A DNA stretch of 64,000 nucleotides. Source: Okeania hirsuta. GTDB taxonomy: Bacteria > Cyanobacteriota > Cyanobacteriia > Cyanobacteriales > Microcoleaceae. The stretch is taken from positions 1-64,000 of the forward strand of contig NZ_RCBY01000002.1 in assembly GCF_003838195.1 (NCBI RefSeq), written 5' to 3'. The position numbers and the translations under genes are program-made. Each line of letters starts with the position of its first letter. The first letter of the stretch is position 1. The notes beneath the pieces are model-generated. The model searched no databases, was not told the origin of the DNA, and saw only the letters and a list, made by a program, of their open reading frames with translations. Shown piece after piece: positions 4,113 to 11,435 of this stretch.

Positions 4113-5215
4113 TTGCTAAGGCAAAGCTACCTCACCAGTATTAAAAATGCTATACTTGTTAAGCTGACTTTTAAAAAAGTTAATATTGAATCAGCATTAG
4201 AATTAACTTTAGCAGAAGTTTGTCAAACAATGAATTGGGATTTTGGAGAAGCATGGATTCCTGACCCAGAAGCTACAATGCTCAAATTTAGTAGAGGATG
4301 GTATTCTAGTAATAGTAATAACGGTACTTTACCAGCAGCTTTAAAATTTCGACAACAGCATCAAATTATTACCTTTAACTCCCAAGAAAGCTTACTACAA
4401 AGGGTGTGGAATTCTCAGCAAACAGAATGGGTAAAAGATATTTATCAGGAAAAAGATTCAGTTTTTATTTGTTTTAAAATTGCCGAAAAAATAGGTATTA
4501 AATCTGCATTGGGAATACCGATTATTCTAGATAAACAGGTTTTAGCTATCTTAGTATTTTTCCAGAAATTTTCTCAAACATTAGATCAAAATTCTATACA
4601 GTTAGTTAATGCTGTGGCAACTCAGTTAGGTGGATTAATTCAACGTAAAAAATCTGAGTTAGCTCTGAAAAAAGCAAACCAAAATTTAAAACTAATTGCC
4701 AGTTTTGATATTTTAACTTCTTTGGCTAATCGTCGTACATTCGATGAATATTTTCATCAAAAATGGGAGCAACTTAGACAAGACAAAAAATATTTATCTC
4801 TCATCCTTTGTGATGTGGATTATTTCAAATATTATAATGATTTTTATGGGCATCCAGAGGGAGACAAATACCTCAAAAAAGTTGCTCAAGCTATTAGCAA
4901 GGTAGCTAAATTTTCTACAGATTTAGTCTGTCGTTATGGTGGCGAAAAATTTGGAGTTATATTACCAAATACAAATATTAAGGAAGCTTTACGAAGAGCA
5001 GAATTAATTAGGAGAGAAATCAAAAGGTTTGAAATACCTCACGCTTGTTCAAAAGTAAGTCCTTATGTAACTGTAAGTTTAGGAGTAAGTAGCGTAATTC
5101 CTACGTTACAATTATCTGTCGTACATGATTAATAGATGCTGATCAGGCGCTTTATCAAGCAAAAGAACAGGGACGAGATTGTGTTATTGCTCATAGAATT
5201 AATTATGTTTGTTAG
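4113..5215 (+). pseudogene. GAF-GGDEF protein, frameshifted and with degenerate active site
   Basis: The main frame (4113-5132, TTG start) has a GAF-like sensor domain over residues ~20-180 and a GGDEF domain over ~190-335. The signature loop reads GGEKF instead of GG[D/E]EF, so a metal-binding glutamate is replaced by lysine. The frame stops at 5130, but the missing end of the GGDEF domain (LIDADQALYQAKEQGRDCV) is present in another frame at 5129-5215. A single frameshift around 5121-5128 therefore separates the two parts. The start is also weak, with no ribosome site. Most likely a decaying diguanylate cyclase gene; a non-catalytic c-di-GMP receptor is less likely given the truncation. Confidence 0.85.
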
Positions 5216-6146: not shown

Positions 6147-6205
6147 AAAATCCTCCTTCTCTTGTTAATAAATATTGGTAGTACTGTACAAGTAGTAATA
6201 TTTTA

Positions 6206-6457
6206 ATACCCAATTAAAATAAAGCTGTATAGAATAAGATTCAATTTTGAATTGACCGTAGATCGACAGAGATAAATGAATTAATTTCATAATTATCTAT
6301 ATTTATTTTAATATTAGGTTCAAGACTCTCAGTATATTTAAAAAAATTAGTGGTACACCTTTGTGGCGGATCTGAGTCCTCCATCATACACCTGAATTTC
6401 GCACTTCCGACCCAGGAGACTAACTGATTCAAGTGCAGCCTTACATAAAATTGGTAT
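6206..6457. mobile_element. MITE family B, long copy
   Basis: The ends ATACCCAATTAAAATAAAGC and, inverted, ATACCAATTTTATGTAAGGC match those of the 127 bp copy at 59714-59840, and the internal block GAATTGACCG is shared. This copy is 252 bp because it carries extra internal sequence. A 63-codon minus-strand frame inside it has no support as a gene. Confidence 0.65.
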
Positions 6458-6650
6458 TAGAAAAAGTCAAATAATTTGTCAATACTATTTCTTTGAAACT
6501 TAAAAATTGGAAATATTTTTTGTTTCCTCTTTTTTTACACTACCAGGTTTGTTTATGCCGACCCATTATCCCATCTCTGTTACCTGACTCCACAGGAAAT
6601 TACTACATCTATAAAATGACCGATAATATTTTAGTTTTTTTTTGCTGTTT

Positions 6651-8087
6651 TTAAGTCCTCCAAAAAAGCTTTAATTTGCTAAAAATACTTACAATTAATG
6701 CCACTATTAATGTATAAATAAATCCCGTTAATAATCCTAACCTTGTTGTTTGAGTCATTTGTGCAATTTTTTCATACCATCCAGTTAATTTCAAGATAGG
6801 TAAGAGTAAGTTACCAAAAACCACATAAGCTATCATTGGATTTTGACCATTATAGATAAATAATTTGAGAATACTTTTTTGCTGAAAATAATCTCTAACA
6901 ACAGTGAATAGAATTAACAAAAAAATAGACATTCCTGTAGTAATGAAAAAGTAGCTTAGAGTAGCACTATCTTTTTTAATTCCACCTTGAAAAGGTTCAA
7001 AAGCTAATCCTAATACTAGCCAATAAATTCCCCAACCATAAAGTTTATTGAGTAAATTTTCTATCTGATTACTTGGTTGCTGGAATAATAACCAACCAGA
7101 AGCACATAAAACTCCGCTGATTAAAGTTGTTTCTAAAACTAGCCTAGATTGTAACCCAATCAATAATACCAAGTCAATAGTAAGCATTAATACTGCAATA
7201 ATAAAAAAACGACTAGCTGGCCATTTTTCTAATGTCGAATCGCGATCGCTACTTTCATTATTTCTCATCCATTTTAAAATTAAATCTCCGCTAATAGTAC
7301 CTGGAATGACGATAAATAAGTACTTCAAATAATCAAATCTAAAAATCCAAGGCAAAGGAGAGTTAAACCAAAAATCTTTTACCCATCCATCATCAGCAGC
7401 AGAAAATCTTAGCCCTAATAATATTCCCAATAATCCTAAACGTAACCACCAATTAGATTGAGTAAATAACCAAATTATCGAACCAAAAACAGCCATATTA
7501 GTTAAAACGATGAGGATAATATCACTGCGTTCTAATGAAAAGTTACTACCATCTGGATATGTTAATCTACTCAGAATTAAAATACATATACTCCACCCAG
7601 CTATACTCATAAATTGATTGAGAAATTTGGGGATAAATTTTGGCAAACGACTGTACATTAAAAATAGGATTAAAAATCCCAATAAAGCAAGTTTCCACTT
7701 TTCCGGAATTTCCTCTGCATTATTAATAATGTGCGGTCGAAAATGTTGAAGCACTATAGCAAAAGTTCCCAACAAAAATCCTCTTTTCAGGATGAATAAA
7801 AATATTGAAATGTATCGCCACCCTTTATTTATTAATCGAGATAAAGCTAGGGGTATAGATGCTCCCATTGCAAATAAGAAAATTGGAAAAACAATATCTA
7901 CCCAAGTTAATCCAGGAATATTAGGATTAAATACATAATTTGGTGGTGGTGTTTGAGCATGATACATCCAAGTAGGAAGTGTTCCATCACGAGGAATTAT
8001 GCCTGATAATACCATCATTAAAATAGCAAATCCTCGTAGAGCATCTAGAGCTTCAGCACGTTTTTTAGAGGTTAGTTGTTTTACCAT
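6651..8087 (-). CDS. Heparan-alpha-glucosaminide N-acetyltransferase-like membrane protein
   Basis: A 478-residue polytopic membrane protein with about ten to twelve hydrophobic segments. The N-terminus has EALDALRGFAILMMVLSG, then TPPPNYVFNPNIPGLTWVDI and VFPIFLFAMGASIPLALS. This is the signature of the HGSNAT/DUF5009 (also called DUF1624) acyltransferase-like family, related to YeiB. Members are thought to move acetyl groups across the membrane to glycans; the cyanobacterial substrate is unknown. Start ATG at 8087 has only a weak GGATGA upstream. It stands alone on this strand. Confidence 0.8.
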   Translation of the reverse strand: MVKQLTSKKRAEALDALRGFAILMMVLSGIIPRDGTLPTWMYHAQTPPPNYVFNPNIPGLTWVDIVFPIFLFAMGASIPLALSRLINKGWRYISIFLFILKRGFLLGTFAIVLQHFRPHIINNAEEIPEKWKLALLGFLILFLMYSRLPKFIPKFLNQFMSIAGWSICILILSRLTYPDGSNFSLERSDIILIVLTNMAVFGSIIWLFTQSNWWLRLGLLGILLGLRFSAADDGWVKDFWFNSPLPWIFRFDYLKYLFIVIPGTISGDLILKWMRNNESSDRDSTLEKWPASRFFIIAVLMLTIDLVLLIGLQSRLVLETTLISGVLCASGWLLFQQPSNQIENLLNKLYGWGIYWLVLGLAFEPFQGGIKKDSATLSYFFITTGMSIFLLILFTVVRDYFQQKSILKLFIYNGQNPMIAYVVFGNLLLPILKLTGWYEKIAQMTQTTRLGLLTGFIYTLIVALIVSIFSKLKLFWRT

Positions 8088-8650: not shown

Positions 8651-8832
8651 CTAATTTTTTAAAGCTATACCCATAATGTTACCTCCACCTTGAGCTTTAG
8701 ATAGACGCATTGCCAAAGCAACTTCAGGTAATGTTTTACCATATCCTATAGTGCCAGTTAATCCAGTTCTCTATTTGTAAATTCTCTGTAAATCCTTTAG
8801 TAAACTTATACCATTTATCCATGAATTTGCAC
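8651..8832 (-). pseudogene. Remnant of a P-loop protein
   Basis: Read on the minus strand, a frame gives NSWINGISLLKDLQRIYK, one in-frame TAG, then RTGLTGTIGYGKTLPEVA and LAMRLSKAQGGGNIMGIALK before a stop at 8651. GTIGYGKT fits a Walker A (GxxxxGKT) nucleotide-binding loop. Nothing continues the domain on either side, so it is a fragment. I cannot name the parent family; an ATPase from a mobile or defence locus is a guess. Confidence 0.5.
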
Positions 8833-8910
8833 TTAATATAAAGATGAGAATAGTCAGTTTAATAAGGTCTGAGCAACAATTATTAAGCGCATTGTTACAG
8901 AGAAATGGTA

Positions 8911-10362
8911 TTACCTGATAAGGTGCTTTAAATAGAATATTATCTCCTTCTGCAAAAAGTACACTTTTGTTGCTTTGTAGATTAACTTTTTCAACTCTCC
9001 AATAACTTCATGTACTATATGACTTCGTTCTCTTACTTCATCTTCATTTGATTTTTCAAACGCCATTTCTAAATAGTCACCTCTAAAATCACCATCAAAC
9101 CCAAAATAAAAAATTGTCTGATTTTTATCTGTTGGAGTTTCTAGAATTTGAACATTTACAAGTTGAAACTTTTTATCTAGAAAAGAACTTAGTGTTTTAG
9201 TGATAAATTGTAGAAATGCAAATGCTAACTGAGAAGACAAGCGAGATTGAATAGCTATTATATCCTTTGAATAACTATTTTCTGAAGAAGGATGAGCAAT
9301 ATCATTTCGTACTGAAGTGATTAGTCTAGTGATATGTTCTAGTATTTCAGTATTAACGAAGTATTTTGGATTTTGAGAAAAAATATTTCGCACTTCATCT
9401 AACTTTTTTCCTAGTGTTTTGTTTTCCAAATCAGCACTTTTTATAATCGTTAAAATGATATTTGCGACTTCTTCAACTCCAGCAGAGAAAGAAAAAATAG
9501 AATGACGATAACTATAGGTTTCTTCAGTTACTTCACCAATTAGGCGAGAATTTACCCCAGAGAAAAGCGATTCTCGTAAATGTTCAATATCAAATCCAGA
9601 AGGTAATAAATTTGTTAGGCAATTTACAAGATAGTTAATATTTGAGCGATGGCGTAAAACTTCTGTGTAATTTAATTTTCCGAAATTATCAAACTCCCTT
9701 ATCGGAGGAAATTTGCGATACTTTATACTTACGCCTGCTTTTTCTAAATCATGGTAAAAAAGACTAGCTTGCTTTTTTCTAGTATAGCAATGAGCGCTGG
9801 TATATTTACAAATTGCAGGAAAGGCCAAATAACTAAAAGTCTTATATTATCGGCAATTTATTCCCCCTGTTGCCTGTTGCCTGTTGCCTGTTGCCTGCGC
9901 ACAGCGCTATACCTGAATCTTTAGAAAAATCTATTTCCAACGAATAAATATTTTCTATATCAAGTACATAAGCAAAAACAGCAAGTATAGACTTAAGAGA
10001 TGAAATACCACCTGTCAAGTCAATATAGTTTTGTGGGTTATCAAAAGGGTTAAATTTTTTCGTAGTTGCTCTACAAAATCCCTAAATGTATCAACATTAG
10101 AATCTTCTATTTTTTTGACATGATGTACTAAACTTGTTGAATAAATTTTATAGTTGCTTAGATATTCTTACCAATCTACTGAAGTTGTCAAAGCTTGTAA
10201 TGATTGTTCTGAATGAAAAATCTATACTTGACCAAAAATTAAATCGCTATTTTTAGTATCATTTCGCGCTTGAAGGGTAGCTCCAATAATAGCGTTAATC
10301 ATTGCAGGAATGTTTGTCTCTCCCGCTAAAATTAGCTTGAATGATTTTTGATAAATGTTCAT
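8911..10362 (-). pseudogene. CARF-like plus HEPN protein (Csm6/Csx1-like), disrupted by a MITE
   Basis: The intact downstream part (8911-9828) encodes a helical domain with RNDIAH at residues ~174-179 of that frame, the R-x4-H motif of HEPN ribonucleases. Its first ~16 codons come from a 125 bp element at 9785-9909. Upstream of the element the reading continues: ATG at 10362 gives MNIYQKSFKLILAGETN, two in-frame stops, one lost base in an A-run near 10055, then YIDLTGGISSLKSILAVFAY and IENIYSLEIDFSKDSG. The LTGG strand-turn and following helix resemble CARF-type domains (TGGTK). Removing the element and one TA copy joins SG to TRKKQ in frame, giving about 440 codons, the usual length of Csm6/Csx1. 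The HEPN call is fair; the CARF call is inference. Confidence 0.55.
9785..9909. mobile_element. MITE family T (TA target), copy 1
   Basis: A 125 bp element with inverted ends TAGCAATGAGCGC and TAGCGCTGTGCGC, flanked by TA on both sides. It contains a short (TTGCCTG) repeat tract. Matching copies are at 11207-11331 and 51451-51560, each also flanked by TA. The TA target and terminal inverted repeats fit non-autonomous elements of the IS630/Tc1-mariner type; no transposase lies in the window. Confidence 0.85.
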
Positions 10363-11015: not shown

Positions 11016-11204
11016 TTATACCAATTTTAAAAAAGAATGCTATGAAAAGTGCCTCTCTATCAGATATTCTTAAAAATAGTGACTATCGTGGATTTTAGAT
11101 AGTTATTTATATCGTTTTTACCTTTTTTAAAATATTTCCTTCTTCTTCCTTCTTCCTTCTTCCTTACTTCTACTATTTGTAAAAAACACTTATCAAATTG
11201 GTAT
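11016..11204. mobile_element. MITE-like repeat family H
   Basis: Left end ATACCAATTTTAAAAAAGAA and right end, inverted, ATACCAATTTGATAAGTG. A related sequence in opposite orientation spans about 60085-60380, where it is split by other repeats. The interior holds a CTTCTTCCTT repeat run. Confidence 0.5.
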
Positions 11205-11206
11205 TA

Positions 11207-11331
11207 TAGCAATGAGCGCTGGTATCTTTACAAATTGCAGGAGAGGCCAAATAGCTAAAAGTCTTATATTATGAGCAATTTATTTCCCCTGTTGCCTATT
11301 GCCTGTTGCCTGTTGCCTGCGCACAGCGCTA
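11207..11331. mobile_element. MITE family T, copy 2
   Basis: Same ends and TTGCCTG tract as the element at 9785-9909, with TA on both sides. It sits directly beside the family H repeat, 105 bp beyond the stop codon of the UbiB-type kinase gene. Confidence 0.8.
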
Positions 11332-11435
11332 TATTGCTCAATCAAGGCTCCATTTTTTGAAAAAAAAATTAGTTGCCAGTAAAAACTTTTCCTACTAACA
11401 ACTAATAATAATTAACTATTAAATAATTAATCAAC

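Follow-up and report, generated by a model that had tools for sequence, protein, structure and literature searches.

The 64,000-nucleotide stretch of Okeania hirsuta DNA analysed here (the window) carries, on its reverse strand, a decayed CARF-HEPN-mCpol gene with neighbours as in other Okeania. Where the gene is still open, sequence and predicted structure suggest that it probably encodes a one-protein system in which synthase, sensor and effector are joined. This overall account, a dead gene in the window and a self-contained nucleotide signaller among its open relatives, is considered likely, the guard-like logic discussed below being its least certain part. mCpol (minimal CRISPR polymerase) is a miniature cyclase of the Cas10 type and produces the signal in Panoptes. 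Nothing of the proposed signalling can still work from the window copy.

The family assignment comes from profile searches. The best PADLOC family for the window ORF is CARF_HEPN_mCpol (PDLC01967, E 3.3e-100). The open homologue from Okeania sp. SIO2B3 matches this profile at E 7.5e-201, compared with E 1.5e-5 to 4.8e-4 for the Csx1 and Csm6 profiles. In the window genome, the profile is recovered as four collinear pieces (positions 1-95, 94-166, 130-407 and 422-470 of 471, with a gap at 408-421), all of which map to this locus and together represent the whole profile with its domains in order; no further mCpol match appears in that genome at E 0.001. The Pfam mCpol model (PF18182, cut-off 26.4 bits) scores 28.9 bits on the window ORF alone, 29.9 and 28.6 bits on the window pieces covering model positions 1-48 and 68-113 of 114, and E 1.2e-26 on the intact homologue. 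Across 14 control genomes, PDLC01967 gave one match at 0.001 (Thermotoga maritima) and none at 1e-15. An NCBIfam search returned one weak, irrelevant match only. Matches by phmmer and profile to a designed 'circular tendon repeat protein' (7rdr) were set aside; they look like helix-repeat artefacts, each repeat contributing 5 to 8 bits.

Lesions were called against the nearest intact homologue, the open SIO2B3 gene (L022), which has 496 codons rather than the combined length of about 440 given in the preliminary description. That description, of a two-domain Csm6/Csx1-like gene broken by a TA-targeted MITE, also ended the gene at 8911. This position is the edge of a second MITE, the rest of mCpol lies beyond it, and the real end is at 8651; the start is an ATG at 10362. 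Its account of the upstream damage is borne out. The 125-bp element has a TA on both sides, and its removal predicted a junction, SLEIDFSKDSG-TRKKQASLFYHD, that is found naturally without the element in Okeania SIO3B5. Upstream YIDLTGGISSLK and downstream RNDIAH are both present, as are the two stops in the CARF region, in the first third of the gene (TAG at 10222-10224, codon 47; TAA at 10168-10170, codon 65), and the one-base loss at codon 104, near 10047-10062. Relative to the homologue, the element appears as a 127-bp insertion at codon 151, comprising MITE 1 and one TA.

The mCpol region carries further damage: a 10-bp deletion at codon 423 (near 8959-8981), a 105-bp insertion at codon 445, which is MITE 2, and a third in-register stop at codon 457 (8771-8773). 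In total, two MITEs, three in-register stops and two small deletions interrupt the gene, which no longer forms a single open frame. The mCpol motifs can still be located, FDGD at 9099-9088 and EGD within 8950-8935, and the catalytic Asp pair is still encoded, the second Asp being out of frame. The pseudogene is flanked by a DUF5009 gene (478 aa) on one side and by an ABC1-type gene (679 aa) on the other. The former occupies the same side in Okeania SIO3B5 and SIO2C9 and the latter is a flank in SIO2B3; the position of the locus looks fixed within Okeania.

Table 1. Features of the CARF-HEPN-mCpol locus in the window.
Feature	Position	Strand	Remarks
CARF-HEPN-mCpol pseudogene	8651..10362	-	PADLOC PDLC01967, four profile pieces
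CARF sensor region	9697..10347	-	homologue codons 6-180; split by MITE 1; ends computed from codon positions
HEPN region	9181..9678	-	homologue codons 187-352; frame still open; RNDIAH at 9309-9292
mCpol (minimal CRISPR polymerase) region	8654..9117	-	homologue codons 374-496; broken by 10-bp deletion, MITE 2 and stop
Remnant ORF, 305 aa	8911..9828	-	TTG start inside MITE 1; HEPN and first mCpol part; ends at MITE 2 edge
MITE 1	9785..9909	-	125 bp; TA both sides (9783-9784, 9910-9911); internal GTTGCCT repeats
MITE 1, second window copy	11202..11333	+	94% identical; between pseudogene and 679-aa ABC1-type gene
MITE 2	about 8807..8911	-	about 103-105 bp; inverted ends ATACCATTT/AAATGGTAT; apparent TA target

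Both elements are short non-coding repeats with conserved ends, target duplication and many copies. The genome contains at least 40 copies of MITE 1, a minimum because 40 of the 401 candidates were scored. When 20 rows, representing 19 independent copies, are aligned, they have common ends running from TATAGC (once TATAGT) to GCGCTATA and unrelated flanks, as a MITE should. For MITE 2, at least 25 genome matches were obtained, including itself (40 scored of 45 candidates). Okeania SIO2C9 carries a copy of MITE 2 at the same site as the window and has the same one-base loss. It also has an insertion site at codon 467 in common with SIO3B5, absent from the window, at which the inserted segments (L021, about 8948-9081, in SIO3B5; L023, about 9289-9438, in SIO2C9) have partly different insides. 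Because the window and SIO2C9 on the one hand, and SIO2C9 and SIO3B5 on the other, share conflicting lesions, the history of the damage is not a simple tree; the codon-467 pattern suggests recombination or a repeatedly used target. The window copy, although only a pseudogene, illustrates how a gene of this kind can be destroyed by MITEs.

The readable remainder lies between the two MITEs, where the HEPN frame is open and a start codon is supplied by MITE 1. That this 305-aa ORF has been retained as a HEPN protein is scarcely credible. Codons 181-372 are free of lesions in the window, SIO2C9 and SIO3B5, and window-specific changes, nonsynonymous to synonymous, number 4/6 in HEPN and 12/2 in CARF (Fisher P 0.03, uncorrected); both observations speak for retention. 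The hint did not hold up when the window was compared with SIO2C9, the other dead copy with which it has lesions in common: dN/dS is 0.49 for HEPN, 0.61 for CARF and 0.51 for mCpol. Against a neutral simulation, HEPN gave P 0.135 while the dead CARF gave 0.02, so the test shows no constraint specific to HEPN. Elsewhere, in G196, G222, G642 and G305, HEPN itself is damaged. The retained-ORF reading was rejected.

The roles of the three domains are best considered on the open SIO2B3 homologue. Its AlphaFold2 model, built from nine aligned sequences (mean pLDDT 76.5, pTM 0.48), has three domains: Rossmann-like (residues about 6-180), helical (187-352) and palm (371-496). Using VIA-align 2, the palm domain aligns with the Panoptes cyclase OptS (9pd0) at Z 16.7 over 117 residues (2.0 Å) and with Cmr2 at Z 13.4. 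The N-terminal domain, which the preliminary description had already recognized as CARF-like, has the CARF Rossmann fold, aligning with SiRe_0806 at Z 13.4 (137 residues, 3.0 Å) and with Cad1-CARF at Z 12.6 (146 residues, 3.4 Å). The helical domain was modelled alone (pLDDT 80.3, pTM 0.78) and aligns with AF_0298 at Z 11.5 (3.1 Å, 123 residues) and with two more HEPN proteins at 11.0 and 10.7, values that lie below the Z of about 13 under which, according to the tool, helical bundles can mislead. Among its top 20 rows, 11 are titled HEPN, the first unrelated helical protein appearing at Z 8.1; Foldseek on this domain gave a best E of 0.096, with nothing under E 0.001. The Z values, along with the RNxxxH motif and a location downstream of CARF, suggest that the middle domain is HEPN, as had been proposed. 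The predicted structure thus agrees well with known CARF and mCpol folds and moderately with HEPN. The best whole-model Foldseek match is Csm6 (E 1.1e-6) with an rmsd of 20 Å, indicating that the individual parts resemble Csm6 and their arrangement does not. Given this value and the pTM of 0.48, the model does not fix how the domains are arranged in the whole chain.

Residues expected at the active sites are retained in every open copy. In a nine-sequence alignment, one member of which (L035) begins inside its CARF, the following are invariant in 9/9: HEPN R310, N311 and H315, giving the R-x4-H spacing; mCpol D381, G382, D383, S405, G434 and D435; and CARF D115, T117, G119 and S121 (DxTxGxS). 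According to the available sections of PMC12657218 and PMC12657230, OptS Asp6 and Asp57 are catalytic, and Ser30 together with Asn34 is linked to nucleotide selectivity. In the profile alignment, OptS Asp6 and Asp57 correspond to D381 and D435, and OptS Ser30 to S405; the position of Asn34 is not conserved among the CARF-HEPN-mCpol copies. Sequence comparison of the five closest of 8 genes (10 pairs) gives dN/dS of 0.04-0.33 in each of the three domains, a rough indication of purifying selection on all three, since dS often approaches or exceeds 1 and saturation affects the 18 more distant pairs (ratios reach 1.03, and some are undefined).

Taken together, these data bear on the earlier proposal that the gene encoded an accessory nuclease, like Csm6 or Csx1, working with type III CRISPR. 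Its CARF-then-HEPN order stands and recurs in the intact orthologues; the architecture does not, as a third, C-terminal domain, mCpol, is added. The accompanying caution was well placed: it allowed for an orphan gene or for some other defence protein based on HEPN. Domain order, the whole-model match to Csm6, the weak PADLOC Csm6/Csx1 matches of the Okeania homologue and a Cas10 palm match in 13/17 carrier genomes all speak for an accessory role. Against it, the CARF_HEPN_mCpol profile wins by far, and the search of the window genome for Cas10 palm and RAMP was negative, as it was for SMODS (the RAMP search covered five genomes). Cas10 palm is found in 245/388 genomes of the order sample and is no commoner in carriers (12/16) than in others (233/372, P 0.43). 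Two genomes with open copies, G264, which consists of one contig, and G322, likewise have no Cas10, RAMP or SMODS match; a third, G250, has Cas10 and RAMPs. The proteins share with Csm6/Csx1 the CARF-HEPN order and RNxxxH, and differ in carrying their own cyclase domain, with no link found to type III systems or dependence on a Cas10-made ligand. An accessory role is very improbable, failing on architecture and on the missing type III link, and was rejected.

The immediate surroundings of the open copies do not supply a partner either. Neighbours were inspected at 8 of the 9 open copies, and no gene is common to all of them; among the 20 neighbour proteins scanned with PADLOC, none is a Cas protein and 16 have no match. 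The open gene of G018 (6162-7679) adjoins dndC, dndD/pbeC and dndE-like genes (L067 8086-12214), the one clear defence neighbourhood among the eight. In G201, an ABC-type neighbour protein matches generic ATPase and sensor models. A DUF433 gene lies directly beside the open copy in G234 (L068 3285-3503) and in G322 (L070 6016-6222), by chance or as a loose partner. In this small sample, none of the dnd-like, ABC-type and DUF433 neighbours was taken as a required partner. A CBASS link was also rejected: SMODS, a model that may miss some CBASS synthases, is found in 1/17 carriers and 31/388 order genomes, and within the order sample in 1/16 carriers compared with 30/372 others (P 1.0).

In the order sample of 388 genomes, PDLC01967 matches 29 at E 0.001, 16 with a CARF-HEPN-mCpol gene and 13 whose mCpol-type matches are all shorter or distant. 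A class sample (388 genomes, partly overlapping) has five matches at 1e-15, one of them new (G642), and a family sample (61 genomes) has nine at 1e-15, none new. The resulting 17 copies comprise 9 open and 8 broken. The open gene of G322 (L070 6282-7856) has about 36 extra in-frame residues in CARF, possibly an in-frame insertion. Carriage on plasmids or phages was considered and rejected, tblastn at E 1e-5 giving no match in either a plasmid or a phage collection.

The broken copies differ in which domain is affected. Three are wrecked (the window, SIO2C9 and G305). In G196, G642 and G222, mCpol is open and HEPN is damaged, G222 also having a CARF frameshift. In two copies, mCpol alone is damaged and CARF-HEPN is open with its motifs. 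Okeania SIO3B5 has a 134-bp insertion (codon 467) followed by a stop at codon 476, with no earlier lesion, and Lyngbya aestuarii BL J has 2 bp inserted at codon 447, leaving aside differences at the extreme end. Separate decay in other cyanobacteria is seen at L042 (G222), L041/L057 (G196), L058 (G642) and L043 (G305). In G642, an in-frame deletion joins the start of CARF to the open mCpol in one 188-aa frame.

Split relatives were found among the genomes with only shorter or distant mCpol matches, ORFs having been inspected in 9 of these 13. In G122 and G136, mCpol adjoins a separate gene that matches the CARF-HEPN part of PDLC01967 (E 2.4e-6 and 5e-4) and bears, by eye, RNFTSH or RNISAH. In five of the nine, mCpol adjoins a CARF-TM gene (by PADLOC for the scanned L047, by eye for the rest), and in two it is fused, mCpol first, to CARF-TM (L045 478-1938, L046 592-1872), another single-gene mCpol architecture in the order.

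We infer a self-contained device because of the folds, the invariant catalytic residues, the lack of a shared partner gene and the existence of split two-gene relatives. The proposed signalling would involve: synthesis of a cyclic nucleotide, probably from ATP, by the C-terminal mCpol; binding of that nucleotide by the N-terminal CARF; and control of the middle HEPN, a putative RNase, by the CARF-bound signal. By analogy with Panoptes, the signal may restrain HEPN, so that the protein acts as a guard, a tentative reading whose likelihood falls slightly short of even. If so, mCpol would need no trigger, and the ever-present signal would keep HEPN inactive. Removal of cyclic nucleotides by a phage, through degradation or sequestration, would then free the RNase, and cell growth would stop. 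The chain has no visible phage-sensing or trigger domain, and the available sections of PMC12657230 report that the Panoptes mCpol is constitutively active when it stands alone; both count in favour of a guard.

The opposite sign is almost as credible: HEPN would be activated by the mCpol product, in the way that Csm6/Csx1 respond to cyclic oligoadenylates. Here, the rest of the chain must keep mCpol inactive until infection, a requirement that sits poorly with the absence of a visible trigger and with a constitutive stand-alone enzyme. Consistent with activation, the CARF-HEPN RNase Csx1 is turned on, as a dimer, by its ligand, according to PMC11229360. The pattern of natural damage points the same way. 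Two copies without a working mCpol keep CARF-HEPN open, a state that should be tolerable if the signal activates; these copies count against a guard because loss of the sole restraint should be harmful. Among the five lightly damaged copies, two are damaged in mCpol only and three in HEPN with mCpol open. Losses confined to mCpol are not depleted, as this domain makes up 25% of the length and the chance of at least two in five is 0.36. They form a weak natural hint against Panoptes-style inhibition; the entire protein may become unstable when its last domain is truncated, and frameshifts in draft genomes may be sequencing errors. The lack of CBASS enrichment in carriers, unlike Panoptes, is a further point against a guard. 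A one-protein alarm independent of CRISPR and CBASS, with a logic the reverse of that of Panoptes, would explain the persistence of mCpol-only losses if the mCpol product fires the effector; this fuller version is judged rather unlikely.

Compared with known systems, the window gene has the three domains of PDLC01967 in the same order and differs in being dead. Panoptes (OptS, an mCpol, with OptE, an S-2TMbeta protein) is alike in mCpol fold and catalytic residues. It consists of two genes with a beta-barrel sensor and a membrane effector; the CARF-HEPN-mCpol protein is one chain with a CARF sensor and a HEPN effector, and at the eight inspected open copies there is a single gene with no shared adjoining gene in place of an operon with an S-2TMbeta effector. 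The CBASS link of Panoptes is not seen. The CARF-TM pairs and fusions are alike in combining mCpol with a CARF sensor, and have a membrane segment instead of HEPN.

A 2015 and a 2020 paper are said to have first classified mCpol and CARF architectures. Among the literature found, only PMC12657218 combines mCpol, HEPN and CARF; it states that coupling or fusion of mCpol with HEPN RNases is less frequent, and that whether the nucleotide then acts negatively or positively is still to be seen. The main text of PMC12657230 contains none of HEPN, CARF or 'fused', the available sections of PMC12669027 and PMC11229360 describe no fusion of this type, and the literature searched yielded no experimental study of an mCpol-HEPN fusion. 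The architecture is thus already known, being named in PADLOC, with mCpol-HEPN fusions mentioned in PMC12657218. New here are the dead member, the decay patterns, including natural losses of single domains, and a testable question. The open cyanobacterial copies are single-gene test cases for the sign of the mCpol signal on HEPN, one of them from a genome of a single contig that gave no match to Cas10, RAMP or SMODS, and the natural copies broken in one domain are ready-made comparisons.

Elsewhere in the window, a 339-aa ORF at 4113-5132 (+) appears by eye to be GAF-GGDEF-like, with RYGGEKF in the active-site place; its GGDEF domain looks cut short, a stop following soon after the SLGVS strand.
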